The notes under the pieces were generated by a model that searched no databases, was not told where the DNA came from, and saw only the letters and a program-made list of their open reading frames with translations. From Glycomyces sp. YM15 (GTDB lineage Bacteria > Actinomycetota > Actinomycetes > Mycobacteriales > Micromonosporaceae): DNA of 64,000 nt. Shown here piece by piece: positions 7,769-31,776 of the stretch (its first letter is position 1; each line of letters starts with the position of its first letter). Position numbers and translations under genes: made by a program. The stretch spans positions 1 through 64,000 of the forward strand of contig NZ_JAERMK010000017.1 in the NCBI RefSeq assembly GCF_016918015.1, written 5' to 3'.

Positions 7769-7918
7769 GCTGCTTCCCTTGGGGTATAGGGCTATGAATG
7801 GTCAATGAAGCGCCACCAAAATAACATGCGGACCATTGCCGCGCAATCCGTCTATTGCTCGAGAACCCCTATGCGACAGCGCTGACCAGCGCTGCTGAAT
7901 CGCCATTCGTCAAGGTCC

Positions 7919-8033
7919 CGTACAGGCGCATTCAAGACCGCTGTGCAAGTGCCGAGGTGAAACTGTCCTCCTGTTCAAGCGGTATGGAATGGATGCATTC
8001 GTACAGGCAAAATATCGTCGCATTCAAGGACCG
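7919..8033 (+). repeat. imperfect direct repeat upstream of the GT2 gene
   Basis: CGTACAGGC followed by GCATTCAAGACCG occurs at 7919-7940. The same two words (the second with one added G) recur at 8000-8033, split by the 11-base insert AAAATATCGTC. The copies are 81 bp apart and the second ends 17 bases before the GT2 start. This could be a regulatory site pair. The rest of 7769-8050 shows no gene. Confidence 0.5.
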
Positions 8034-8050
8034 GAAGCGAGTATCGGGAT

Positions 8051-9037
8051 ATGTCGACGGAGCTTCCCTGGTCGGTGGTCATCCCCTGCCACAATGCCGC
8101 CAAAACCCTTGAGCGCTGCCTATCGGCGGTATACGCGCAAACTGCTCCGCCCGCCGAAGTCATCGTGGTGGACGACGCCAGCACCGACGCCACCGCCGCG
8201 ATCGCGGCCGGCTTCCCCTGCCGCACGATCGCGGTCGACCCCAACCGCGGACCGGCCGCCGCCCGCAACCTCGGCGCCGCACGCGCGGTCGGCGAGGTCC
8301 TGTTCTTCCTCGACGCGGACATCGAACTGCGGCCCGACGCCCTCGCCCGCGCCGCCGCCGCTCTCGCCGCTCCCGGCGTCGGCCTCGTCCAAGGCGTCTA
8401 CGCCGCCGAGCCGATGATCGACGACGGTCCCGTCGAGCGCTACAAGACCCTCTTCGAGCACCGCTGGCGCACCGCCGCCGCCGGGCCCACCGACGTGACC
8501 CTCTTCGCGCTCACCGCGATCCGCACTCGAGTCTTCACCGCCGCCCGCGGCTTCGACGAGACCCTGCGCTCAGGCGAGGACGTCGAATTCGGCTCCCGCC
8601 TCCCTCCCCCCTGGACCGCCGTGACCGACCCGGACGTGGTCGGCCGCCACGATGACGTCGACCGGCTCGGGGCCCTCCTGGCCGAGCAGTGGCGCCGCTC
8701 CCTGCGCTTCGCCGAACTCCTCGCCCGCGCCCGCCGGGCGCCGTCCACAACGAACACCGTCCGCACCGGCGCCTACGGGCCCGCGGCCGTGCTCGCCGCC
8801 GCCGCGATCGCCGCCTCCGCGCCCCTCGCGATCTGGTCGCCCTGGCTCGCGCTCCTCCCGGCGCTCTTCGCCGCCGTGTTCGCCCTCGCCAGCGCGCCCC
8901 TCCTCACGGCCGCCGCCGCGCACGGCCGCCGCTGGGCCGCAACGGTGTTCGCGCTGCACCTGCTCTACGTCGGCACCGCCGGCCTCGCGAGCCTCGTCGG
9001 GGCCCTCCGGCCCGCCGTCTGGAGGGCCCGGGCATGA
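8051..9037 (+). CDS. family 2 glycosyltransferase, membrane-associated
   Basis: A 328-residue GT-A fold transferase that uses a nucleotide-activated or lipid-linked sugar at the cytoplasmic membrane face. The nucleotide-binding strand with Asp41-Asp42 (VVDDAST) and the DxD-like metal site at residues 88-90 (LDADIE) are present. GEDVEFGSRL supplies the downstream acidic motif. About three hydrophobic segments follow residue 240. It is paralogous to the transferase at 15638-16681, sharing PCHNAA, EVIVVDDAS and RGEVLFF-type blocks. Its stop overlaps the next start (ATGA), so the pair is coupled. Confidence 0.92.
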   Translation: MSTELPWSVVIPCHNAAKTLERCLSAVYAQTAPPAEVIVVDDASTDATAAIAAGFPCRTIAVDPNRGPAAARNLGAARAVGEVLFFLDADIELRPDALARAAAALAAPGVGLVQGVYAAEPMIDDGPVERYKTLFEHRWRTAAAGPTDVTLFALTAIRTRVFTAARGFDETLRSGEDVEFGSRLPPPWTAVTDPDVVGRHDDVDRLGALLAEQWRRSLRFAELLARARRAPSTTNTVRTGAYGPAAVLAAAAIAASAPLAIWSPWLALLPALFAAVFALASAPLLTAAAAHGRRWAATVFALHLLYVGTAGLASLVGALRPAVWRARA

Positions 9038-9990
9038 AGCGCATCCTCTGGCGCCTTTCGGGCATCGTCGTCATGGCCGCCGTCGTCGTCGCGGTCGCGG
9101 CGGCCATGCGCGGCCAGGACTGGAGCGCGGCGCTCGCGTTCGCCAGCGGCGAGCACATGCCCCAGATCGCGCTGGCGGCCCTGATCAACCTCGCCGGCCT
9201 GGTCCTCGGGATGCTCGCCTGGCGCGCGATCGTGAACGGCGCGGGCGAACCCGTGCCGGTGCGCGACGCCGCGAACATCTTCTTCGCCGGCATGCTCGTC
9301 AAGTACCTTCCGGGTCGCTTGTGGACACTTCTGGTCAACATGCGCATGGGCACCGAAGTCGGCGTCGGCCCGGCCCGCATGGCCGGCGTCTACGTGCTCA
9401 ACATCGGCGTCATGGTCACCACCGGGATGCTCGCGGGCCTCCTCGCCGCCCCGGCGGCCTTCGGTCCGCGCGGCTGGTGGGTGCTCCTCGCCGCCGTCCC
9501 CGGGCTCGTGCTCTTCGCCCGGCCCGCCCTGGTCAACCGCGCCGCGGTCCTGATCACGAAGGCCGTCCGCAGGCCCGCCCCGCCCGCATACAGCGGCAAG
9601 TCGATCCGTGCCTCCCTGATCTACCAGACGGTGTCGTGGCTGGTCACCGGCCACCACCTGTGGGTACTGGCGCTGGCCGCCGGCGCGGACCCGTGGCGGT
9701 CCTACCTGCTGTGCGTGGGCCTGTTCGGGCTGGCGCTGGTGGTCGGCTCGCTCGTGGTGATCGTGCCCGACGGCCTCGGCATCCGCGAGGGCATCCTGGT
9801 GGCGGCCCTGACCCTGGTGCTGCCCTTGCCGATGGCGGGGGCGGTCGCCGTGACGAGCCGGGCCGTGGCCACGCTCGGCGAGGTCGCCTCCGCCGCGGTG
9901 GTCTACGCGTGGTCGGCACGGGCCCGCCTGAAGCGGGCCCGCGCCGCCGATCAGGTGCCCGCGGCGGCCTCTTCGAGCACCGCCGCGTAG
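9034..9990 (+). CDS. lysylphosphatidylglycerol-synthase-type transmembrane protein
   Basis: A 318-residue polytopic membrane protein with about eight helices, resembling the LPG_synthase_TM/UPF0104 domain. Recognisable features are the FAGMLVKYLPGRLW block near residues 87-100 and the PDGLGIREG motif near residues 246-254. In the family such domains act as flippases or lipid-handling modules, for example the membrane part of MprF and proteins in lipid-linked glycan loci. It lacks the soluble aminoacyl-transferase domain. Coupled to the upstream GT2 by a 4-base overlap, so flipping of a glycolipid made by this locus is a reasonable inference. Its 3' end overlaps the convergent GT4 gene by 40 bases. 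Confidence 0.82.
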   Translation: MKRILWRLSGIVVMAAVVVAVAAAMRGQDWSAALAFASGEHMPQIALAALINLAGLVLGMLAWRAIVNGAGEPVPVRDAANIFFAGMLVKYLPGRLWTLLVNMRMGTEVGVGPARMAGVYVLNIGVMVTTGMLAGLLAAPAAFGPRGWWVLLAAVPGLVLFARPALVNRAAVLITKAVRRPAPPAYSGKSIRASLIYQTVSWLVTGHHLWVLALAAGADPWRSYLLCVGLFGLALVVGSLVVIVPDGLGIREGILVAALTLVLPLPMAGAVAVTSRAVATLGEVASAAVVYAWSARARLKRARAADQVPAAASSSTAA

Positions 9991-11075
9991 GCCTCCAATG
10001 AGGACCGCATGCCGAACGCGGCGGTCGCGATCGCCGCGCCGGCGGACCGGCGCCTGGCCGGGTAGCGGCACACGCGCCGCAGCGCCTCCCGCAGCCCGTC
10101 CGCGTCGCCGGACTCGACGAGTTCGCCGAAACCCGTGGTCTGCAACGGCACACGCATGCCCGGCAGGTCGGAGGCGACGACCGGGACGCCGGACATCATG
10201 GCCTCGGTCTGGGTGATGCCGAAGGACTCCTCGGCCACGGACGGCAGCGCGAAGGCGTCGAGGGACGCGTGGAAGTCGGCGATCGCCGCCTCCTCCAACC
10301 GCCCGAGGAACCGGACGCGATCGTCCCCGGCGGCCTGGGCGCGCAGCCGCGCGACCACGTCGCCGCCGGCCACGCTCTCGTCGCCGGCCAGCAGCAGCCG
10401 CGCCGCCGGGTCCTCCCAGTCCCGGAAGGCGCGCACGAGATGGTGGAGCCCCTTCTCGGGGGCCATGCGCCCCAGGAACCCGATGTGCGGGCCCGCGCCG
10501 TCGCGGAACGCGGGCTTCCCGGGACCGCGCTCGCGGCACGGCGGCGGGACGGCGCACACGCGCCGCTGCTCCATGATCGACCAGTGCCGCGAGGACTTCG
10601 CGTGGTCGAGGTTGGCGACGACCACTGCGGTGGCGCGGCGCAGTGCGGCGCCCACCGAGGCGTCGACCACCGCGATCTGCGCCCGGGCCGTGACGCCCTG
10701 GGAGAGCCATACGTCGTCGTGGTGATGGACCACGACCGGCGTTCCGCGCGCCGCGCGCGCGATGAGTCCGGCCTCCAGCATCGGCACATGGATGTTGACC
10801 ACATCGGCCCGCCGCGCGATCCGGCCCGCGAGCGAGGCGAACTCCGGGCTGACCACGCCGCGCCCGATGCGGGCGGCGACGCGGGCGCGGTGGACGTGCA
10901 CGCCCTCGCGGACCTCGAAGCGCGGCAGGGCCGGGTCGTGGCGGGACGCGACCACGGCGACGCGCTTCCCGTTGGCCGCCAAGAACTCGGCCACGTCCAT
11001 GGCGACCCTGGTGAGCCCGCTGGTGTAGGGGGCGTAGTAGTTGAGCACGACGCAGGCGTCGTATCGGGAGTTCAC
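9951..11075 (-). CDS. family 4 glycosyltransferase
   Basis: A 374-residue GT-B fold transferase. The N-terminal domain opens with NYYAPYTSGLTRVAMDVAEFL, and the C-terminal donor-binding domain starts at FLGRMAPEKGLHHLV. The retaining GT4 signature E-x7-E is visible in EESFGITQTEAM. The GTG start at 11075 has AGGAG about 9 bases upstream. The open frame continues further but into antisense of the next gene. It lies 11 bases after the exonuclease/phosphatase-like gene and closes the six-gene leftward operon. The acceptor is probably a membrane lipid or lipid-linked sugar. Confidence 0.9.
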   Translation of the reverse strand: MNSRYDACVVLNYYAPYTSGLTRVAMDVAEFLAANGKRVAVVASRHDPALPRFEVREGVHVHRARVAARIGRGVVSPEFASLAGRIARRADVVNIHVPMLEAGLIARAARGTPVVVHHHDDVWLSQGVTARAQIAVVDASVGAALRRATAVVVANLDHAKSSRHWSIMEQRRVCAVPPPCRERGPGKPAFRDGAGPHIGFLGRMAPEKGLHHLVRAFRDWEDPAARLLLAGDESVAGGDVVARLRAQAAGDDRVRFLGRLEEAAIADFHASLDAFALPSVAEESFGITQTEAMMSGVPVVASDLPGMRVPLQTTGFGELVESGDADGLREALRRVCRYPARRRSAGAAIATAAFGMRSSLEAYAAVLEEAAAGT

Positions 11076-11086
11076 CGCGCTGGCTC

Positions 11087-12220
11087 CTATCGGATGTCGA
11101 GACCGACCATCTGGGCGTCGTGGTCGGAGAGGCCTTCGCTGGAGACGATCTCGTACTCGGCGATTCCGAGCCCCGGGCCGGTGCAGACCCAGTCGAGGCG
11201 CCACCACTTGGGGAACGGGAACCGGATCGAGGGCCAGCTGACCGGCATCACCGAGTCCGGGTCGGGGCAATCGAGGCGGTCGCGCAGTGAGGCGACCCCG
11301 GCGCTGAGGATGGTCGAGTTGAGGTCGCCGCCGATGAACACCGGGTGCGGGTTGGCGTCGATGTCCTCGTTGAGCACGGCGAACTGGGAGCTGCGGCGCT
11401 GGTGCTGCGAGCGCACGTACTCGTAGAAGTCCGCGCTCAGCGGCGAGGCCTCGCCGGTGGGCACGGGCACCGAGAGGTGCATGTTGTACATGGAGACGAC
11501 CTGCCCGTCGACGTCGATGTCGGTGCGGAGGATCTTGGTGGTCCAGTACTCGCGCCAGGGGTCGTCGGCGGGCGGCGCGCCCGGGTCGCCCTCGTCGATG
11601 AGCGCTTCGGTGTCGAGAGCCTTCGAGTCGACGATCGGGTAGCGCGAGAGGGTGACCATCTCGCTGGCGATGACGAGCTCGTAGTCGGGGAAGTGCGCGC
11701 GGAGGGCGGCTTCGTCGTCGATGATCTCGACCCGGTCGGTGCGGGTCAGGTACTCGGTGAGGAGGTAGACGTCGGCGTCCTGGGCGAGCAGGTAGTCGTA
11801 GAACTCGTCGGCGTCGTCCCAGCGGTAGTGCCAGTAGTCGGCGTTCCAGGTGAACACCGCGACGTCGGCGGTGCCCTCGCCGGGCGGGCCGCCGAACACC
11901 GCAGAGAGGTTGACTCCCGCGATCGGGTAGGCGATCGCGAACACGGCGAGGTGGACCGTCCACAGTCGCCAGCGCCTGCCGCGGGCGAGGGGGATCGCGC
12001 ACAGTGCCAGCAGGACCGGCGGGACGAGCAGCGCGAACGGCGGCACCATCTCGATGAGCGACCACCACCAGACCCGACCGGCCAGGACCAGGTGGGCGAC
12101 GAGGAAGGCCGCCCACAGGGTTGTCAGGCCCACGACCAGGAGGGCGCCCAGGCGCCGCCGCCGGGGTTTCGCAGGCTCCGCGTCTTCGGTGGCGGGGGCG
12201 GGGTTCTCGGTCAGGCTCAT
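11087..12220 (-). CDS. membrane-anchored endonuclease/exonuclease/phosphatase-family protein
   Basis: A 377-residue protein with a basic N-terminal tail, about three transmembrane helices (residues 25-110) and an extracytoplasmic EEP-fold domain. Catalytic motifs include FTWNADYW, YNMHLSVP, GGDLNST (metal and phosphate site) and LSDHDAQ (general base His). Proteins of this build are usually phosphodiesterases or lipid phosphatases rather than nucleases. ATG 12220 is preferred because GAAGGAGA lies just before it; a TTG at 12232 lies at the edge of that site. It is tightly packed between UbiA and GT4, so cleavage of a polyprenyl-phosphate or glycolipid intermediate is plausible. Confidence 0.85.
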   Translation of the reverse strand: MSLTENPAPATEDAEPAKPRRRRLGALLVVGLTTLWAAFLVAHLVLAGRVWWWSLIEMVPPFALLVPPVLLALCAIPLARGRRWRLWTVHLAVFAIAYPIAGVNLSAVFGGPPGEGTADVAVFTWNADYWHYRWDDADEFYDYLLAQDADVYLLTEYLTRTDRVEIIDDEAALRAHFPDYELVIASEMVTLSRYPIVDSKALDTEALIDEGDPGAPPADDPWREYWTTKILRTDIDVDGQVVSMYNMHLSVPVPTGEASPLSADFYEYVRSQHQRRSSQFAVLNEDIDANPHPVFIGGDLNSTILSAGVASLRDRLDCPDPDSVMPVSWPSIRFPFPKWWRLDWVCTGPGLGIAEYEIVSSEGLSDHDAQMVGLDIR

Positions 12221-12228
12221 GGTCTCCT

Positions 12229-13179
12229 TCAATCACTCGGACCGTACATGTCGGACAGATCGATCAGCTCCGTGGCCGCGAGGCACGCGAGACAGCTCGC
12301 GCCGATGGCCAGGAGCACCGGGTCGCGCAGCAGCAGGCGGGTGGGGTCCCCGTCGCCGCCGCGCAGCTCGAGCCGCTGGAGGTAGCGGAACAGGGCCATC
12401 AGCAGCAGCGGGACCACCAGCATCGCTTGCGGCCCCTCGGCTTCGGTGGCGTGCGGGCCGCGTAGGGCGAACAGCAGGAACGTGGCTGTCGCGAGCCCGC
12501 CCGCGATGGAGATGAAGTGCTCGAGCATCGAGGCGGTGTAGCCGCGCAGCGCCGCGCGGTGCGCCGTCCCGGCGACGACGATCTCCCTGCGGCGCTTGCC
12601 GAGCACGAGCAGCAGCGAGACGAACAGCGTCGCGAGCACGATGAGGCTCGCCGGCGCGGTGCCGAGCATGAGGTACCCGGCGAGGGCCCGCAGCGGGAAG
12701 CCGGCCGCGACCGCGAACAGTTCGAGCACCGGCACGTCCCGGAGCTTGCGGCTGTACGCGAAGTTCAGGGCGACGTACACCCCGATGGGGATCAGCAGGC
12801 CGGGGGCGGCCGCGACCGCCAGGGCCGCCGAGCCGACGGCGCACGCGATCGCGACGAGCGCGGCCTGGCGCACCGAGAGCGCGCCCGAGGCGAGCGGGCG
12901 GTGGCGCTTGACCGGGTGGTGGCGGTCGCGCTCGCGGTCGGCGATGTCGTTGACGGCGTATACGAGGGAAGACGCGAGCATGAACGCGGCCACCGCGAGG
13001 ACGGGCCCGGCGACCGTCGCGCGGTCCCACACCTGCGGGTCGAGGAACGGCAGCAGCACCGCGACGTTCTTGACCCACTGGCGGGGCCGGGCGAGCGCGA
13101 CCGCCGCCGAGGCGGCGGCGCGGAGGCTAGGCGTCCGATGATCGGCCGGAGCGATTGCTCCCGGCTTGAGGCTGGTCAT
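12229..13179 (-). CDS. UbiA-family prenyltransferase, decaprenyl-phosphate phosphoribosyltransferase-like
   Basis: A 316-residue polytopic membrane enzyme. The first Asp-rich motif is NDIADRERDRHHP from Asn77, followed by VKRHRPLASG. The second region reads YSRKLRDVPVLELF. This arrangement matches the mycobacterial Rv3806c group, which transfers 5-phosphoribosyl from PRPP to decaprenyl phosphate to supply envelope arabinan, although other acceptors exist in UbiA. An AGGAGGG site lies 5 bases before the ATG. The start lies 53 bases inside the upstream epimerase gene, indicating strict coupling. In this operon it may make the lipid-linked pentose on which the neighbours act. Confidence 0.87.
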   Translation of the reverse strand: MTSLKPGAIAPADHRTPSLRAAASAAVALARPRQWVKNVAVLLPFLDPQVWDRATVAGPVLAVAAFMLASSLVYAVNDIADRERDRHHPVKRHRPLASGALSVRQAALVAIACAVGSAALAVAAAPGLLIPIGVYVALNFAYSRKLRDVPVLELFAVAAGFPLRALAGYLMLGTAPASLIVLATLFVSLLLVLGKRRREIVVAGTAHRAALRGYTASMLEHFISIAGGLATATFLLFALRGPHATEAEGPQAMLVVPLLLMALFRYLQRLELRGGDGDPTRLLLRDPVLLAIGASCLACLAATELIDLSDMYGPSD

Positions 13180-14245
13180 GACGGCCCTCCTGCGCTCGTG
13201 CGGGTGGAAAGAGGATCTTGGCGCCGGCGAGCATCCCTTGGCGCCACCGGTCCGAGCTGGTGGCCCCGGCGGCGCCGCGCGGGGCGGGCGGCTGCTCGCG
13301 CCACCACCGGAAGGTGCGCAGGATCGCGTCGCGATTGGAGTGCTCGGGCGTGAAGCCCAGGCGTTCGGCGGCCTTCGCGATGTCCACGAAGGAGTCGGCT
13401 TTGAGCTTGCGCACCAGGCGGTCGTAGACGGGGGAGAGGCCGAGCGCCGAGGCGGCGCGGAGCATCGCGATCGCGGGGGCGGCCGGGACGGACCTGATGC
13501 GGCCCCCGCGCCCGACCTCGTCGAGCACGGCCTGGAAGTCCGAACGGAGCGTCCCGAACTCGCCCGCTCCGATGTTGTAGGTGTCGGCGGCGACGTCGTC
13601 GGGCGCGGTGAGGACGCTGCGCACGGCGCGGGCGAGGTCGTCGATGTCGAGCATCTGGACGCGCACGTCCCCGCGTCCGATGACGGGGAAGTCGCGGCCC
13701 TCCTCGGCCCATTCGAAGAGCATCCCGAACAGGCCGAGCCGCCCCGGGCCCAGGAACGTCTTGGGCCGCACGACGCTCACGCACCGGTCGGCGCGGTGCG
13801 GGGCGACCAGCGCCTCGGCCTCGGCTTTGGCGGCGCTGTAGGTGTCGACCGGCTCATGCGGGTGGTCCTCGGGCGTGGGCACGAGGGCCGGGAGGCCGTA
13901 GACCGCGGTGGAGGAGATGTGCACGACCCGTTCGACGTCGGCCTTCGCCGCGGCGTCGAGCATCGACCGCGCCCCGTCGACGATGATCGACCGGATGTCG
14001 GCCTTCGGATACGACGGCAGCGCTGAAGCACAGTGGACGATCGTGGTGCAGCCGTCGGCCGCTTCGCTGAGCGCGGTCGTGTCGCGCACGTCGCCGGTGC
14101 GCACGGTCAGGCCGGGAGCCGGGTCGAGCGGGCGCAGGTCGTAGGCCACGACCGCCGCGCCGTCCGCGAGGAGGTCGGCGGTGAGCCGGGAGCCGAGGAC
14201 GCCGGCGGCGCCGGTGACGAGCACACGGGAGGGCAGGGCTACCAC
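13127..14245 (-). CDS. NAD-dependent epimerase/dehydratase (extended SDR)
   Basis: A 372-residue Rossmann-fold enzyme acting on a sugar-like substrate. The cofactor loop is GAAGVLG at residues 12-18. The catalytic pair is Tyr136 and Lys140 (YSAAK), with SST at 111-113. VVRPKTFLGPG and the C-terminal half fit the substrate domain. The GTG start at 14245 overlaps the aminotransferase stop by 7 bases. Together with the aminotransferase it could epimerise, oxidise or reduce and then aminate a sugar. The 3-beta-hydroxysteroid-dehydrogenase-like subgroup is an alternative. Confidence 0.88.
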   Translation of the reverse strand: MVALPSRVLVTGAAGVLGSRLTADLLADGAAVVAYDLRPLDPAPGLTVRTGDVRDTTALSEAADGCTTIVHCASALPSYPKADIRSIIVDGARSMLDAAAKADVERVVHISSTAVYGLPALVPTPEDHPHEPVDTYSAAKAEAEALVAPHRADRCVSVVRPKTFLGPGRLGLFGMLFEWAEEGRDFPVIGRGDVRVQMLDIDDLARAVRSVLTAPDDVAADTYNIGAGEFGTLRSDFQAVLDEVGRGGRIRSVPAAPAIAMLRAASALGLSPVYDRLVRKLKADSFVDIAKAAERLGFTPEHSNRDAILRTFRWWREQPPAPRGAAGATSSDRWRQGMLAGAKILFPPARAQEGRHDQPQAGSNRSGRSSDA

Positions 14246-15651
14246 AGGTTGCTCACCTTCTGCGCGACGAAGCGGCGCACCAGCCGTCCCAGCCCGGAGG
14301 AGAGGACGTCCTCGATCGCGGCGAGGCAGCGGTGCACCTCTTCGAGCGGCGTGACGAGCGGCGGCCCGATCACGACCGGGTGCTCGCCGTTCAGGGTGTA
14401 GTACAGGTAGATCCCGTGGTCCTCGTACATCGCCTGCAGGAACGCCGAGGCGAGCAGCTTCTGCTGGAAGCCAGGGTCCTTGGCGAGCCCGCCGGGGACG
14501 AGCTTCATGAGGGGCTCGACGAACGACGGGCCGCCCTGCAGGAACAGCCCCCACAGGGCCCCCGCGCCGCGCACGTCCGCGACTTCGTCCGGGAAGGCCT
14601 TCGCGATCCGGTCGAGCCCTGGCGCGAGCACGGCCTCGATGGCGCGGGCCCGCGCGGGGTAGTCGTCCTCGATCGCGACGCGGATGGCCTCGATGGCCGT
14701 GGCGCACTCCTCGCCGAAGCCGTAGTAGGTCGTGCTCGTGGTCTGGAGGAGGGCGTCGCCGAGGTTGTCGTAGGCCTTGCGGTACACCCGGCCCCGCACC
14801 ACGAACCCCGAGATCGAGGACTTCCCTCCGCCGAGCGCCTTCGAGGTGCAGAGGATGTCGGGGACGATGCCCTCGTAGCGCATGAAGTGGAACAGGCTCC
14901 CGGTCTTGCCCCACCCGGTGTAGATCTCGTCGAAGATGAGGACGATGTCCTCCTCGTCGCACAGCGCCCGCAGCCCCTGCAGGAACTCCTCGGAGCACTG
15001 GCCCATCGTGGAGGCGCTGAACGGTTCGATGAGCAGCGCGTACACGTCGCCCGGGTGGGCGGCGACGGCCTTGCGCACCGAGTCGAGGTCGTCGTAGACG
15101 AAGTCCTCGATGCCCGGGATGGTCGGGAAGCGGAACCCGTGCCCCTGGGCGGCGGTGAGTCCGCCGGAGCCGAGCAGCTTGCCGTGGAAGGCGGAGGTGG
15201 CGCGCAGGACCGTGCCTCGGCGGCCGCGGTGGTACTTGTATGCGCACTTGACCGCGCCTTCGATGGCCTCCGCGCCGGAGTTGGGGAAGAACGAGTGGTC
15301 GAGGTCGTCGGGCAGCACCTCGGCGAGGTTGTGGCTGAGCGCCGCCAGATAGGGGGAGAAGAACGTCTTGTGCACCTCCATGCGGCCGCGCTCAGCGAAG
15401 CGGCGGCGCGCCTCGAGGATGCGGGGGTGGTTGTGGCCGTGGTTGAGCACGCCCACCCCGCCGGTGAGGTCGGTGACGCGCCGGCCGCCCTTGAGGTGCA
15501 GGTAGCAGCCTTCGGCGTGGTCGACCAGTTCGCGGCCGAATCCGAACGAGGTCATGAGCGAGACCTGGCTGCTGTTGATGTAGCGCCGGTAGAGCTTCTG
15601 GACCTCTTTGAGGTCCATCGCCTCGGCTTCGTCGATGTCAATGAGTCGCAT
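14239..15651 (-). CDS. class III aminotransferase
   Basis: A 470-residue PLP-dependent fold-type I enzyme. The cofactor phosphate site is FFPNSGAEAIEGAVK (about residues 121-135), Asp241 (IFDEIYTGWGKTG) contacts the pyridine nitrogen, and Lys271 (CTSKALGGGKSSISG) should form the Schiff base. Class III members transfer omega-amino groups or isomerise amino groups. Placement between a GT2 and an epimerase suggests amination of a sugar or polyol-like precursor, rather than ornithine metabolism for which no partners are present. AGGAA lies 8 bases before the ATG. The start overlaps the GT2 stop by 14 bases. Confidence 0.92.
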   Translation of the reverse strand: MRLIDIDEAEAMDLKEVQKLYRRYINSSQVSLMTSFGFGRELVDHAEGCYLHLKGGRRVTDLTGGVGVLNHGHNHPRILEARRRFAERGRMEVHKTFFSPYLAALSHNLAEVLPDDLDHSFFPNSGAEAIEGAVKCAYKYHRGRRGTVLRATSAFHGKLLGSGGLTAAQGHGFRFPTIPGIEDFVYDDLDSVRKAVAAHPGDVYALLIEPFSASTMGQCSEEFLQGLRALCDEEDIVLIFDEIYTGWGKTGSLFHFMRYEGIVPDILCTSKALGGGKSSISGFVVRGRVYRKAYDNLGDALLQTTSTTYYGFGEECATAIEAIRVAIEDDYPARARAIEAVLAPGLDRIAKAFPDEVADVRGAGALWGLFLQGGPSFVEPLMKLVPGGLAKDPGFQQKLLASAFLQAMYEDHGIYLYYTLNGEHPVVIGPPLVTPLEEVHRCLAAIEDVLSSGLGRLVRRFVAQKVSNLW

Positions 15652-16681
15652 AGGGTTCGTTCCTCGTGGTGGGGGTGTGGCTCGCGGCGGGGCGGGAGCC
15701 CCGGCGCATCAGCGGCCCTGCGGCGATGCCGCAGACGAGGACCGCCATGAAGCACAGGTGGACGGCCGCGAACGGCACGGTCCGCGCGGGTCCGATGTGG
15801 CGCGCGGCGTAGCGGAGCAGGTCCGCATCCGAGGCGAGGGCGAAGGCGAGCGCAGCCGCGGTGACGAGGAGCGCCTGGGGGGCGAGCACCGCGACGGGCA
15901 GGGACGCGAGCGCGGCGGCCGTCGCCGCGAGCGAGCGCATCCGGTTGATGCGCTCCAACCGGACCCCGCGCGGACGCAGCGCGCTCAGCGGTGTGGAGCG
16001 CTTCCACTGGGTCCGCAGCGCCTTCGGCAGCGACGAGCCCGCGTCGTGGCTGCCCGCCACCGACTCGGCGATGACGATCGCCGCGCGCCCGCCCATCCGC
16101 GCCGAGTACTCCACGTCCTCGCAGTCGCGCAGCCGCTCGTCGAGCGGCCCGAACCGCTCGAACACGCCGCACCGCACGGCCGCGACCGCGAACACGACCA
16201 CATTGGCCGGCCCGGCATGGCGGTGCCGCCAGAACGCCTCGCGCAGCACCAGGTACCGCTCGGTGATGCTCCTGCCGCGCAGGGGCTCGGGGTCGTAGGT
16301 GCCGTGCACGATGTCGATGTCCGGGCCGGATTCCATGAGTTCCAACGCATTCGCGACCGCGTCGGGCCGCAGTGCGACGTCGGAGTCCACGAAGAACAGG
16401 ACTTCCCCGCGCGCGGCGGCGATTCCCGTGTTGCGCGCTCCGGACGGGCCGCGGTTGCGCTCCAATCGGATCACCTCGCATCCGAACTCGGCCGCGATCG
16501 CCGCCGAATCATCGGCACTGGCGTCGTCGACCACGATCACCTCGTCGGGCACCCGCGTCTGGTTCCGCAGGGCCCCGAGGCAGTCCCGGAGCGTCCCGGC
16601 CGCGTTGTGGCAGGGCACGATCGCGCTGACGAAGAGCGGTCCAGCGGCCGGCTCGCGCGGTCGGGCGGGGTCTCGTCCCAT
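15638..16681 (-). CDS. family 2 glycosyltransferase, first gene of the operon
   Basis: A 347-residue GT-A transferase with the VVDDAS strand at residues 50-55, the DxD site at 99-101 (VDSDV), an acidic DCEDVEYSARMGG block, and two to three hydrophobic segments after residue 240 that should tether it to the membrane. It is a paralogue of the enzyme at 8051. It leads the overlapping leftward operon to 9951. The 11-bp-phased heptamer array at 16739-16821 lies 58-140 bases upstream of its ATG, where an activator would bind. The C-terminal tail past residue 325 is polar and may be cytoplasmic. Confidence 0.92.
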   Translation of the reverse strand: MGRDPARPREPAAGPLFVSAIVPCHNAAGTLRDCLGALRNQTRVPDEVIVVDDASADDSAAIAAEFGCEVIRLERNRGPSGARNTGIAAARGEVLFFVDSDVALRPDAVANALELMESGPDIDIVHGTYDPEPLRGRSITERYLVLREAFWRHRHAGPANVVVFAVAAVRCGVFERFGPLDERLRDCEDVEYSARMGGRAAIVIAESVAGSHDAGSSLPKALRTQWKRSTPLSALRPRGVRLERINRMRSLAATAAALASLPVAVLAPQALLVTAAALAFALASDADLLRYAARHIGPARTVPFAAVHLCFMAVLVCGIAAGPLMRRGSRPAASHTPTTRNEPYATH

Positions 16682-16738
16682 GGGTCACTCTCGCTCAGTT
16701 CCGTAGCACGGCAGGTGAATCTCTTGATACTGAACGTA

Positions 16739-16821
16739 ATCGACCGTGCTGGACCGGGCCTCTACCGGACCTCGACCGGGTCTCTACACCACCTCTACCG
16801 CGCCACGACCGGGACTCGACC
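16739..16821 (-). promoter_or_regulatory. helically phased heptamer array, candidate SARP activator site
   Basis: On the plus strand heptamers CTGGACC, CTCTACC, CTCGACC, CTCTACA, CTCTACC, CACGACC and CTCGACC start at 16749, 16760, 16771, 16782, 16793, 16804 and 16815, an exact 11-bp period. An eighth copy (ATCGACC) lies at 16739. Read towards the operon they are GGTMGAG words with 4-bp spacers. SARP regulators bind TCGAG-containing heptamers repeated every 11 bp, and a SARP gene lies at 17888. A TATCAA -10-like hexamer sits about 9 bases beyond the last repeat. Confidence 0.72.
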
Positions 16822-16839
16822 AAGCCTGAATCGAAACTG

Positions 16840-16877
16840 AACCACGTTCCGCGACGACGAACACGCGGAACGTGGTT
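16840..16877. terminator. strong bidirectional hairpin terminator
   Basis: AACCACGTTCCGCG (16840-16853) pairs perfectly with CGCGGAACGTGGTT (16864-16877) around a 10-base loop, and a T-rich run follows on the plus strand. It ends the aldo/keto reductase transcript and insulates it from the GT2 operon promoter. Confidence 0.85.
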
Positions 16878-16887
16878 CGATTTCGTT

Positions 16888-17868
16888 TCAGGCCGCCGTG
16901 AGTCGTTCGCGCACGGCCGCGTCCAGCTCGATCCCGGCCCCGGCCAGCGCCTCGTCCAATTGCGACACACTGCTGACCCCGAGGATCGGGATCACCGTCG
17001 CCGGGCCTGACGTGAGCCAGGCGAGCGCGAGCTGGTTCGGCGTCACCCCCAGCGCCGCCGCCTCCTCGCGCAGCACCGCGACCCGGCGTTCGGAACCTGC
17101 GTGGTCGTAGTCCACCGGCGCCCCGGGCGGCCTGCGATCCGACCTGGAGAACGCACCGTTCGACAACGGCGAGTAGGCGAACACCGGCAGGTCCTCGGCC
17201 ACCGCGTAGTCCAGCAGTTCATCGCTCGCCGCGAGCTGGATCGACTCCGGCAGCGGCACGTGCAGCGGCCGCGGGTACAGGTAGGTGTGCCGCTGCTGGA
17301 TCGCCCGGTACCCCTCGCGGGCCGCCCGCGCGGCGCCCGCCCGGGCCCGCTCGAGCCGCCAGCACGCGTGGTTGCTCGCGCCCAGGACCCTCACCGACCC
17401 CTTCTCGACCAGCCGGGCGAACGCGTCGACCGTCTCGTCCAGCGGCACCCCGCGGTCATCGGCGTGCGCGTAGTACAGCGCGACCGACTCGACGCCCAGC
17501 CGCTCCCTGCTGCGCTCGAACTGCTCGCCGATCCGCTCCGGCGCCAGGCCCTCCCGGTTCCCGCCGTGATACGGCTCGTCGGGGCGCGCGGGCGCGGCCC
17601 CGACCTTGGTGGCCACCCGCATGGTCCCGGCCATGCCCCGGTCGGCGAGCCAGCGCCCGATCAGCGCCTCGCTCTCCTCACCGGTGCCGCCGTCCGCCCA
17701 GAAGGCGTAGCAGTTCGCCGTGTCGAGCAGGTTCCCGCCGGCCTCGGCGTACCGGTCGAGCATGGCGAACGCCTCGTCCTCGCCCACGGTCGTCCCGAAG
17801 TACATGGTGCCGAGGCAGAACTGCGAGGCCTCGAACCCCGTCGCTCCGCCGATCTGGTGTCGTCGCAT
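16888..17868 (-). CDS. aldo/keto reductase
   Basis: A 326-residue NADPH-dependent TIM-barrel oxidoreductase. The catalytic tetrad is visible: Asp49 and Tyr54 (LDTANCY), Lys88 (ATKVG) and His135 (YYAHADD). The cofactor segment includes YSPLSNGAFSRS and the later ILGVSSVSQLDEA. Length is normal for the family. It starts 19 bases after the SARP stop and is probably cotranscribed with it. The substrate is unknown. It may act on a sugar aldehyde, possibly within the SARP-controlled pathway. Confidence 0.92.
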   Translation of the reverse strand: MRRHQIGGATGFEASQFCLGTMYFGTTVGEDEAFAMLDRYAEAGGNLLDTANCYAFWADGGTGEESEALIGRWLADRGMAGTMRVATKVGAAPARPDEPYHGGNREGLAPERIGEQFERSRERLGVESVALYYAHADDRGVPLDETVDAFARLVEKGSVRVLGASNHACWRLERARAGAARAAREGYRAIQQRHTYLYPRPLHVPLPESIQLAASDELLDYAVAEDLPVFAYSPLSNGAFSRSDRRPPGAPVDYDHAGSERRVAVLREEAAALGVTPNQLALAWLTSGPATVIPILGVSSVSQLDEALAGAGIELDAAVRERLTAA

Positions 17869-17887
17869 GTCACTCCTCGCTTTCGGC

Positions 17888-18694
17888 TCACCGCTGCTGT
17901 GCGGCGAGGGTCAGGTGCTCGGTCCACAGTTCTTCACGGGGACGGTCGGCCAGCAGGTCGAAGAACAGCTCCTGCGCCCGCTGGGACGGGCCGATCCCCA
18001 AGTCTTCTTTCAGTAGTGAGCGCAGGTCGTGGTAGGCCACGAGCGCTTCGCCGCGCCGGTCCTCCCGGTCCAGGCCCAGCATCAGGAGGATCCACAGTCG
18101 CTCCCGGAACGGATGCCGCCGCACCAGGGTCGCGAGTTCTGCCAGTGTGTCGCTGCGCCCGCCGACGCGCAGCCGCAGCGCCAGCGCGGTCTCGAGCGTG
18201 TCGAGGCGCAGTTCCTCCAGGCGGCGCCGCTCCTGGCTCGCGAGCGGCCCGGTCGCGCCGTGCAGCGCCTCGCCGCCCGACCAGCGGTCGAGCGCGCGGT
18301 CGAGCGCTTCCCGGGCCTGGCCGAGGTGCCCGGCCCAGAGCGCGGCCATGCCCGTGCGGCGGTCGGCCTCGAACTCCTCCACGTCGAGGGTGATGTCGCC
18401 GGGGGCGATGGAGTAGCCGGGCCGCAGGGACCGCAGGAGCCCGCCGCCTTCGGCACTGCCGGTGCGGCGGCGCAGGCGGCTGATATAGGTGTGGACGACG
18501 TTGACGGCGCTGGCGGGCGCGGCCGCGCCCCACAGGTCGGCGATCAACTGGTCGACGAGGACGGGCGAGCCGCGGCGGATGACGAGGATGCCGAAGCACT
18601 CCCGCTCGCGGGCGGGTCCGAGGTGGACGGGCTCGCCGTCGATGGACATTCCGATGGCGCCGAACAGGCGCACGGTGGTTTCAGGGGTTCTCAT
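17888..18694 (-). CDS. SARP-family (AfsR-like) pathway activator
   Basis: A 268-residue small SARP: an OmpR-type winged-helix DNA-binding domain (about residues 5-98, with DQLIADLWG and YISRLRRR) followed by a bacterial transcriptional activation domain of TPR-like helices (about 105-250, including HPFRERLWILLMLGL and AYHDLRSLLKEDLG). It lacks the NB-ARC ATPase domain of large AfsR proteins. ATG 18694 is chosen because GAAGGTGAG lies just before it; an upstream in-frame start would include that site. SARPs activate specialised-metabolite operons through 11-bp-phased heptamers, like the array at 16739-16821, so that operon is its most likely target. Confidence 0.9.
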   Translation of the reverse strand: MRTPETTVRLFGAIGMSIDGEPVHLGPARERECFGILVIRRGSPVLVDQLIADLWGAAAPASAVNVVHTYISRLRRRTGSAEGGGLLRSLRPGYSIAPGDITLDVEEFEADRRTGMAALWAGHLGQAREALDRALDRWSGGEALHGATGPLASQERRRLEELRLDTLETALALRLRVGGRSDTLAELATLVRRHPFRERLWILLMLGLDREDRRGEALVAYHDLRSLLKEDLGIGPSQRAQELFFDLLADRPREELWTEHLTLAAQQR

Positions 18695-19149
18695 GCTCAC
18701 CTTCAAGTCGAGGGGCGCGCCGGCCCGCGTGCGGCCGGGCTCGCCGCACTGGCCGACGCGGGTAGGGGAGCGGTCGGCGACCTCGTTGGCGCAGCGCTCC
18801 CACGGACCACGGTCAAGACATGGGATCTTGAGCTCTTCTATGGCTCTGCAGGGGGTTCGAGAGGTTTGTCAAGCCGCTCAGCCATGCTCGTGGCGGGGCC
18901 GGGGCGGTACCGATGTCATCCTAACAGGAGGGACCGACGATCTCGCTCCCATGCGATCACCGACGGTGAGAACCACTGGTGCTGAGCAGCGCATCCGTCG
19001 GGCTTGCCCCGCTTAGGGAGTCGTGTCGGCGGGAGTCGGGCAGGGCCGGCGCGGCTGCTCGAGGTGTGTCGGCGTTCGTCCCCGGCGGGCGCGCCCGGGG
19101 CGGGGCCAAGAGTCTCCGATCACCTCGTCGGCCTCGGCTCGCCGAAACT
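18695..19149. other. gene-free intergenic region
   Basis: No frame here has family features or a convincing ribosome site. It holds the SARP leader and the distal upstream region of the second sugar island. A single TCGAGGG word lies just upstream of the SARP gene, too little to call autoregulation. Confidence 0.5.
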
Positions 19150-22399: not shown

Positions 22400-23419
22400 A
22401 TGAGCGCCGCCGGCCCCAGACCCGTGAGCATCTTCGACGTGGCCAAGCGAGCGGGGGTGTCGCACCAGACCGTCTCGCGCGTCATCAACGACGCCCCGAT
22501 GGTCGCCGACGCCACCAGGGCCCGGGTCAAAGCCGCGATCGCCGACCTGGGCTACCGGCCCAACCGGTCGGCCCGCACGCTCGCCGGCGGCGCCGTGCGG
22601 TCGGTCACCGTCTTCACCTTCGACACCTCCCTGTACGGCACGGCCGAGACGCTCCGCGGCATCGAGGACGCCGCCAGCGCCGCCGGGTTCACCGTGCTCA
22701 TCTCCGTGCTCGATCCCGAGCAGACCTACACCGAGGGCGACATCCTCGCCCGCCTCTCCCACGACGGCGCCCCCGCGATCGTCATAGCCCACGATGAGAC
22801 CACCACCCAGGCCCGGCGCGTCCTCAGGAACGCCCAGCCGGGCGCGGTCGTCGCCACCGGCGACGACCAGCTCGGCCGCGAACCCGATGCCGCCGACTGG
22901 CTCGTCCCGCTCGACGACCGCGCCGTCGCCAAGCGGGCGACGAAGTACCTCCTGTCCATGGGCCATCGAACCGTGCACTACCTCGCGATGCCGGGCAAGG
23001 CGCGACGTCAGGACGGCTGGGCCGAGGCGCTGGCCGAGGCGGGGGTCGAACCGCCCGAAGTGGTCCAGTCGGGCTGGACGATCGGGTCGGCGGCGGAGGC
23101 GGCGGCCGGGCTCGTCGCCGACTCCGAGGTCACCGCGATCATGTGCGGCAACGACGACCTCGCGTTCGGCGTCCTCCACGCCGCCCACCGCGCGGGGCGC
23201 GGCATCCCCGGCGACCTCAGCGTCATCGGCTGCGACGACAGTCCGATGGCCGCCTACCACGTCCCCGGTCTGACCACTATGGACCTCGATTTTCGCGGCG
23301 TAGGCCGCAGCGCCTTCGAACTCCTGCGACACAAGCTCGAAGGCGGCCCCGATCCCCGCCCGTCCTGGCGGTCTCCCGAACTCATCGTCCGGGAGACCTC
23401 GGGACCTCCTCGTCATTGA
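22400..23419 (+). CDS. LacI-family repressor of the second sugar island
   Basis: A 339-residue repressor of normal length. The helix-turn-helix at about residues 10-30 reads IFDVAKRAGV-SHQTVSRVIN. Residues Gln23 and Arg27 occupy the positions that contact the lac operator in E. coli LacI, and Tyr is replaced by His22. The effector domain follows the hinge (RPNRSARTLAGG). It lies inside the operon it probably controls, between the binding protein and the glycoside hydrolase. GAAAGGC precedes the ATG. The natural operator should be GTGAGCGCTCAC, as found at 19150 and 19206. Confidence 0.93.
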   Translation: MSAAGPRPVSIFDVAKRAGVSHQTVSRVINDAPMVADATRARVKAAIADLGYRPNRSARTLAGGAVRSVTVFTFDTSLYGTAETLRGIEDAASAAGFTVLISVLDPEQTYTEGDILARLSHDGAPAIVIAHDETTTQARRVLRNAQPGAVVATGDDQLGREPDAADWLVPLDDRAVAKRATKYLLSMGHRTVHYLAMPGKARRQDGWAEALAEAGVEPPEVVQSGWTIGSAAEAAAGLVADSEVTAIMCGNDDLAFGVLHAAHRAGRGIPGDLSVIGCDDSPMAAYHVPGLTTMDLDFRGVGRSAFELLRHKLEGGPDPRPSWRSPELIVRETSGPPRH

Positions 23420-31670: not shown

Positions 31671-31751
<81 letters not shown>

Positions 31752-31776
31752 CACCCCCCGATCCGAAAGTCCCCCC

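Follow-up and report, generated by a model that had tools for sequence, protein, structure and literature searches.

A nine-unit array of SARP-type repeats in 11-bp register precedes a glycosyltransferase–aminotransferase operon in Glycomyces

SARP-family regulators switch on antibiotic gene clusters, and operators such as those of ActII-ORF4 and DnrI are built on a TCGAG-type core. A locus within a 64,000-nucleotide stretch of the Glycomyces sp. YM15 genome (contig NZ_JAERMK010000017.1, positions 1 to 64,000; hereafter the window) raises the question of why nine units of this type should stand in front of an operon of glycosyltransferase, aminotransferase and UbiA-family genes. On the minus strand, between the end of an aldo/keto reductase gene (AKR, 16888) and the start of a family 2 glycosyltransferase gene (GT2, 16681), the units TTCAG, TTCAG, TCGAG, TCGTG, TAGAG, TAGAG, TCGAG, TAGAG and TCCAG follow one another at a constant 11-bp step, their first T at 16841, 16830, 16819, 16808, 16797, 16786, 16775, 16764 and 16753. 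The array is best explained as a SARP operator that extends beyond two or three repeats, a reading in which binding by the SARP and a role for the additional units are predicted. An earlier inspection of the letters (the sequence-only reading) had described seven TCGAG/TAGAG-type heptamers in exact 11-bp register; all seven are present (TCGAG 16819-16815 through TCCAG 16753-16749), and five have the described form while one is TCGTG and one TCCAG. Its count was short by the two TTCAG units farther upstream (16841-16837 and 16830-16826). A further degenerate copy that it placed at 16739 was rejected as a repeat unit: this site lies 10 bp, not 11, from its neighbor and is the 8-bp spacer CGGTCGAT, whose length, and no repeat, is kept in relatives.

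Tandem Repeats Finder assigns period 11 to positions 16740-16821 and period 22 to positions 16752-16821, and the array reaches an 11-bp-register score of 13.5 versus a top score of 8.0 among 60 simulated 64-kb first-order Markov sequences. The three-unit pattern TMGAG-N6-TMGAG-N6-TMGAG, allowing up to one mismatch, has five matches in the organism's own genome (5,672,275 bases), every one within the array, and the reversed control has none in the same 5.67 Mb. SARP promoters are described as having direct repeats at 11 or 22 bp and an 8-bp gap between the 3′ repeat and the −10 hexamer (PMC10936776). Direct repeats at one of these spacings occur both in the array and at a second site before a facing gene, GT2b, and in seven of the seven Glycomyces genomes that carry the cluster the 3′ repeat stands 8 bp from a predicted −10 at the GT2/AT3 promoter and at the GT2b promoter (Table 1). 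Repeat number is where the locus departs from known operators, which hold three repeats for ActII-ORF4, DnrI, VlmI and FdmR1 and two for SanG, PolR, CcaR and PieR (PMC10972967). The array shares with all of these the heptameric direct repeats and the 11-/22-bp rule, in contrast to their two or three repeats it has nine units in the window and 4 to 11 in relatives, and four Glycomyces genomes hold 8 to 11. As the sequence-only reading remarked, the copy number is high against this range, and we do not treat two or three repeats as defining because the same review states that the count varies by SARP (PMC10972967). Among the titles and abstract openings of our literature search no natural SARP array longer than two or three repeats appeared, which is not proof of absence, and in the literature examined four heptamers are described only for an engineered PimR promoter (PMC5930380).

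A candidate regulator is encoded on the far side of AKR. In this 272-residue small SARP only Trans_reg_C and BTAD domains matched, giving the OmpR-type-then-BTAD order of the family (PF00486, 1.1e-06, 29.1 bits over a cut-off of 26.2; PF03704, 7.8e-33) and no match to the FHA domain of the EmbR type. Its nearest solved structures are AfsR (4.3e-33; 8hvr, 8k60 and 8jke) and EmbR (2fez, 2.8e-31), and residues T73 and R77 in the 272-residue reading, invariant in eight aligned SARPs, align with AfsR T88 and R92, which are base contacts (PMC10936776). Likeness to the S. coelicolor AfsR–afs box system lies in these structures and in the kept T88 and R92 equivalents. In AfsR each repeat is occupied by a monomer, which dimerizes on the DNA and engages region 4 of sigma, the beta flap and one alpha C-terminal domain (PMC10936776); the AfsR dimer forms on two 11-bp repeats, whereas the window regulator is a small SARP with nine units. 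The genome contains seven SARP-domain matches at E ≤1e-5, the window SARP among them. EmbR of mycobacteria, which shares the SARP fold, regulates cell-wall arabinosyltransferases. A SARP in front of a polyprenyl-sugar pathway would thus have precedent; this likeness concerns the protein fold. EmbR differs from the window SARP in having an FHA domain (PMC10936776). Ahead of the SARP start codon, TGGGAGCGCT (minus strand, 18793-18802) is kept in all seven genomes. We take this element to resemble part of a LacI/CebR-type operator; a LacI-family gene is located at 22400-23419, next to genes for ABC transporter permeases, and the SARP may be sugar-gated.

Array, regulator and operon occur together. 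GT2 matches (E ≤1e-20) were found in 11 of 61 genomes searched, seven of them among the 22 genomes of the genus, and SARP matches (E ≤1e-60) fall in the same seven of 22. All six relatives share the order SARP-AKR-GT2-AT3-NADep-UbiA-EEP-GT1, with LPGf-GT2b facing it, except that G003 has an inverted GT2; there the array remains in front of AT3 and is no longer next to AKR. Counting units with at least three of five matches to TCGAG gives nine in the window's own genome (G000), nine in G016, 11 in G017, eight in G005, four in G020, four in G003 and five in G018, the last being six by the rule and counted as five since its topmost unit is at the AKR stop codon. The corresponding SARPs are 97% (G016), 86% (G017), 85% (G005), 74% (G018), 65% (G020) and 62% (G003) identical to the window protein, and the four genomes with 8 to 11 units keep the exact 11-bp step without a register indel. 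The sequence-only reading had proposed that loss of the array from relatives keeping both operon and regulator would speak against a SARP operator; all six relatives carry the array, three of them in a four- or five-unit form. The four genomes nearest by SARP identity, the measure of relatedness used here, are those with long arrays, a distribution that suggests in-register expansion of a short (four- or five-unit) ancestor within one Glycomyces clade. Separately, G017 has a second row of four TCGAG/TCGAA units in 11-bp register outside the cluster (G017:C10:4096-4133).

The facing promoter provides a compact counterpart. GT2b is preceded in 7/7 genomes by a pair of T[CTA]NAG units that are spaced at 22 bp and lie 8 bp from NANNNT, and among 117 spacing-by-spacer combinations at GT2b the only others to appear were 22/11 (2) and 27/4 (2), with a motif set after viewing the alignment and a −10 defined just as NANNNT. 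Since the start codon comes 6-7 nt past the hexamer, the GT2b-LPGf transcript is predicted to be leaderless. At this promoter a pair spaced at 22 bp, its middle unit degenerate, seems to suffice, and the expansion is specific to the GT2 promoter. By eye, a TCAAG-TACAG-TCAAG row at 11-bp steps is also visible at ~7910-7945 in G000, out of phase with the GT2b site, with a like row in G005.

We assign a probability of about 0.87 to the reading of the array as an operator for the neighboring SARP, with a proximal pair recruiting polymerase, seven distal units tuning the response and GT2b-LPGf driven as well. This reading is favored because the promoter rule holds in 7/7 genomes at both promoters, SARP and operon co-occur, and the array stays with AT3 in G003. 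In the proposed mechanism the pair next to TACGTT would, following the SARP family rule, stand in for a −35 element and recruit RNA polymerase to GT2-AT3-NADep-UbiA-EEP-GT1, with a predicted transcription start near 16726. The seven distal units would act as additional cooperative sites that carry the SARP row farther upstream, their monomers tuning occupancy toward a stronger or sharper response, and the same SARP would drive GT2b-LPGf from the 22-bp-spaced site. From direct observations of sequence, register, spacing, conservation and co-occurrence we infer binding, activation, cooperativity, the direction of copy-number change and a reason for the extra copies. The sequence-only reading had already proposed a SARP operator, and its proposal survives in the unit, the 11-bp register, the 8 bp to the −10, the cognate gene, conservation and co-occurrence, and fails in its eighth copy.

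How many units matter is a separate issue, and it is possible, if rather unlikely, that only the proximal two to four are functional, the distal ones being either neutral copies left by slippage or decoys. Four-unit arrays serve G020 and G003, and the internal units of G000 resemble one another (7.73/11) more than they resemble those of G017 (7.31) or G005 (6.70), a pattern that fails for G017 and G005 themselves. PimR, for which alone in the literature examined promoter output was tested against the number of repeats, binds as one monomer per heptamer, cooperatively and with at least two heptamers needed; three repeats are called optimal and a fourth brought no substantial gain in pimaricin (PMC5930380), so distal units may add little. 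The PimR operator resembles the array in having heptamers with 4-bp spacers and differs in belonging to a SARP-LAL regulator and in comprising three plus two CGGCAAG-type heptamers without −35 overlap (PMC5930380). Against neutral copies stands the conservation of the units: T1 and G5 are found in 50/50 counted units of the seven genomes and A4 in 45/50, with a unit-picking rule that favors T1, G5 and A4 and demands none singly, and between G000 and its closest relative G016 the nine cores differ at 0/45 positions while linkers differ at 9/54 (Fisher p 0.0036). This difference argues that the distal units are constrained and hence probably in use, as does the exact register maintained in the four long arrays. 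The signal is weaker for the seven originally reported units alone (core 0/35, linker 5/42, p 0.059), and the two additional TTCAG units overlap a hairpin that could preserve them for its own sake.

At the other extreme, a doubtful extension of the SARP-operator reading has the array nucleate a continuous row of 9-11 SARP monomers that curves or wraps the upstream DNA, giving a near-digital and perhaps sugar-gated switch whose sharpness would be set by an evolvable copy number. AfsR introduces a 20-degree bend midway along one repeat pair (PMC10936776), so eight in-phase steps could turn the DNA by ~160 degrees. If true, sharpness set by copy number would go against three repeats being the optimum.

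We also examined whether the promoter layout extends beyond Glycomyces. AT3 relatives gave 205 confirmed stretches in many actinomycetes, of which the best 80 were kept; 80 loci outside Glycomyces, with 616 upstream regions, were scanned with a control grid of seven registers by nine spacers (63 combinations). Register 11 with spacer 8 was found in 8/80 loci and 11/10 in two, the remaining 61 cells being zero; the eight loci (L040, L067, L073, L075, L078, L083, L097 and L107) include Micromonospora, Phytohabitans and Salinispora, and each match lies upstream of AT3. Among Glycomyces loci the match was 9/10, at (11, 8) only, which amounts to 5/6 genomes since four of the ten loci are second copies of counted genomes and the window itself was outside the scan. 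A SARP-like gene is present in five of the eight matching loci (L040, L067, L073, L078 and L107), and two Plantactinospora loci (L061 and L066) have a like promoter layout by eye only. A SARP near such an operon is not unusual in itself, a SARP-like gene occurring within the stretch covered in 29 of the 80 loci (tblastn, E ≤1e-8).

Several points weigh against the SARP-operator reading. The grid unit and hexamer were defined after the Micromonospora promoters had been inspected, and the controls for register and for spacer inherit this choice; the eight loci therefore do not form a blind test. They also include near relatives (L067/L107, L073/L078 and L083/L097). In L097 the SARP match, at the end of the locus, reaches just 26%, no SARP match occurs within ~21 kb in L075 or L083, and among the Glycomyces arrays that of G018 falls below the grid-scan threshold. 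None of the Streptomyces loci among the 80 match the grid rule, and a motif-free search found nothing in eight loci that contain a SARP-like gene, of which seven are from Streptomyces or Kitasatospora and one is from Pseudosporangium. Seven Streptomyces and Kitasatospora loci (L053, L054, L055, L058, L059, L062 and L080) pair an AT3 cluster with a SARP-like gene without a row that the rule recognizes.

A scan for five-unit TYGAG rows (up to two mismatches) matched 10 of 354 family genomes, with five genomes for the reversed control. The matches are G005, G017 and eight others, and the scan is not exhaustive because TAGAG units make it miss G000 and G016. In the eight other genomes no relative of the window SARP was found within 1.5 kb of the row, and none within 17-19 kb in the wider stretches of G121, G185, G205 and G212; each of the six row-bearing genomes that were searched contains between 7 and 23 SARP-domain matches at other places. 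G205, G222 and G244, from one other Micromonosporaceae genus, show five units, then 8 bp, then AAGCAT or AACCAT, so five-unit rows are not unique to Glycomyces. Their rows read CTGAG, TTGAG, TCGAG, TTGAG and GCGAG/ACGAG (near 1501-1565 in L147 of G205, L149 of G222 and L150 of G244, and also in L166), and by eye the next start codon after the G205 row opens an acyl-carrier-protein-like frame. Rows of at least five TYGAG-type units in 11-bp register were likewise recorded in G121 (L143/L164), G185 (L146/L165), G212 (L148/L163), G303 (L151) and G334 (L152); these five do not obey the 8-bp rule, and some may be coding repeats. Within the reach of the TYGAG pattern, rule-obeying rows of at least eight units are seen in Glycomyces alone.

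The neighboring SARP is not the only conceivable reader of 11-nt repeats, and it is very unlikely that the array is a PHO box or the operator of another OmpR-type regulator. S. coelicolor PhoP binds rows of 11-nt direct repeats whose core is GTTCACC, arranged as simple or as complex operators (PMC4415409), so head-to-tail units and an OmpR-type domain are alike while core and signal differ. On the array GTTCACC scores 3.44/7 in its best phase on the minus strand, where 500 shuffles give a mean of 2.40 and a maximum of 3.22, and 3.67/7 on the plus strand, which is above shuffles and far from a GTTCACC core. TCGAG fits better (4.0/5; shuffle maximum 2.78), array presence tracks SARP and operon, and the 8-bp rule to the −10 is that of SARPs. 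No more credible is a role as an RNA element or part of the AKR transcript terminator. A terminator-like hairpin does adjoin the array at the AKR end, where it stands between the SARP-AKR unit and the array and takes in two units with its 3′ arm; the 16812-16900 region folds at −54.5 kcal/mol (z −7.56), and folding in the four relatives covered is strong in L033 (z −6.49) and L035 (z −7.14), fair in L034 (z −3.56) and weak in L037 (z −1.85). The array RNA itself folds no better than shuffles (z +1.51; 191/200 shuffles at least as good), and in G003 the array lies before AT3, away from AKR. A chance run or low-complexity sequence, suggested by the GC-rich genome and by 13 three-unit matches outside arrays versus seven for the reversed pattern in the 22 genus genomes, is practically negligible, being contradicted already by the simulation, by uniqueness in the genome and by conservation.

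Under the preferred SARP-operator reading, the genes downstream define what the array would control (Table 1). The UbiA-family protein, two family 2 glycosyltransferases, the group 1 glycosyltransferase, the epimerase, the class-III aminotransferase and the flippase-like protein make a polyprenyl-linked amino-sugar glycoconjugate a fair guess for the cluster product. Patchy occurrence of the operon in 7/22 genus genomes suggests an accessory glycoconjugate pathway rather than an established envelope operon. The titles returned by a literature search on the cluster product and on Glycomyces SARPs held nothing relevant. Elsewhere in the window, positions 31673-31759 read as ~44 G and then ~43 C, interrupted in only a few places; this inverted repeat of homopolymers past a coding end may be a hairpin element or an assembly artefact.

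Table 1. Positions of the array, the promoter elements and the surrounding genes in the window.
Feature	Coordinates	Strand	Remarks
SARP gene, small SARP (Trans_reg_C + BTAD)	17888..18694	minus	start ATG 18694 after conserved GAAGGTGAG
AKR, aldo/keto reductase, between SARP and array	16888..17868	minus	
Terminator-like hairpin at AKR end	16824..16893	minus	no U tract; overlaps two TTCAG units
Nine-unit SARP-type operator (predicted), TNNAG-like core every 11 bp	16749..16841	minus	from sequence and unit scan
8-bp spacer CGGTCGAT, last heptamer TCCAGCA to −10	16739..16746	minus	length 8 in 7/7 genomes
Predicted −10 hexamer TACGTT	16733..16738	minus	TACG[GT]T in 7/7 genomes
GT2, family 2 glycosyltransferase, first gene after array	15638..16681	minus	
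AT3, class-III aminotransferase	14239..15651	minus	
NADep, NAD-dependent epimerase/dehydratase	13127..14236	minus	
UbiA-family protein	12229..13179	minus	top NCBIfam match decaprenyl-phosphate phosphoribosyltransferase, 188.8 bits, under the 207 cut-off
EEP, endonuclease/exonuclease/phosphatase-family protein	11087..12232	minus	
GT1, glycosyl transferase group 1, last gene of operon	9951..11075	minus	
LPGf, flippase-like / LPG_synthase_TM membrane protein	9034..9990	plus	match below cut-off
GT2b, family 2 glycosyltransferase	8051..9037	plus	
Predicted −10 GAGTAT	8039..8044	plus	6 nt 5′ of ATG 8051; A2 and T6 kept in 7/7
Second SARP-type site before GT2b	8002..8030	plus	TACAG 8002, degenerate TATCG 8013, TCAAG 8024; 22-bp spacing

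The clade forms a natural series of 4, 4, 5, 8, 9, 9 and 11 units with an orthologous regulator, operon and −10 and a sister 22-bp promoter, so that dose, cooperativity and DNA bending become directly testable. The promoter signature also points to a SARP as regulator of a widespread cluster of glycosyltransferase, aminotransferase and phosphoribosyltransferase-like genes.

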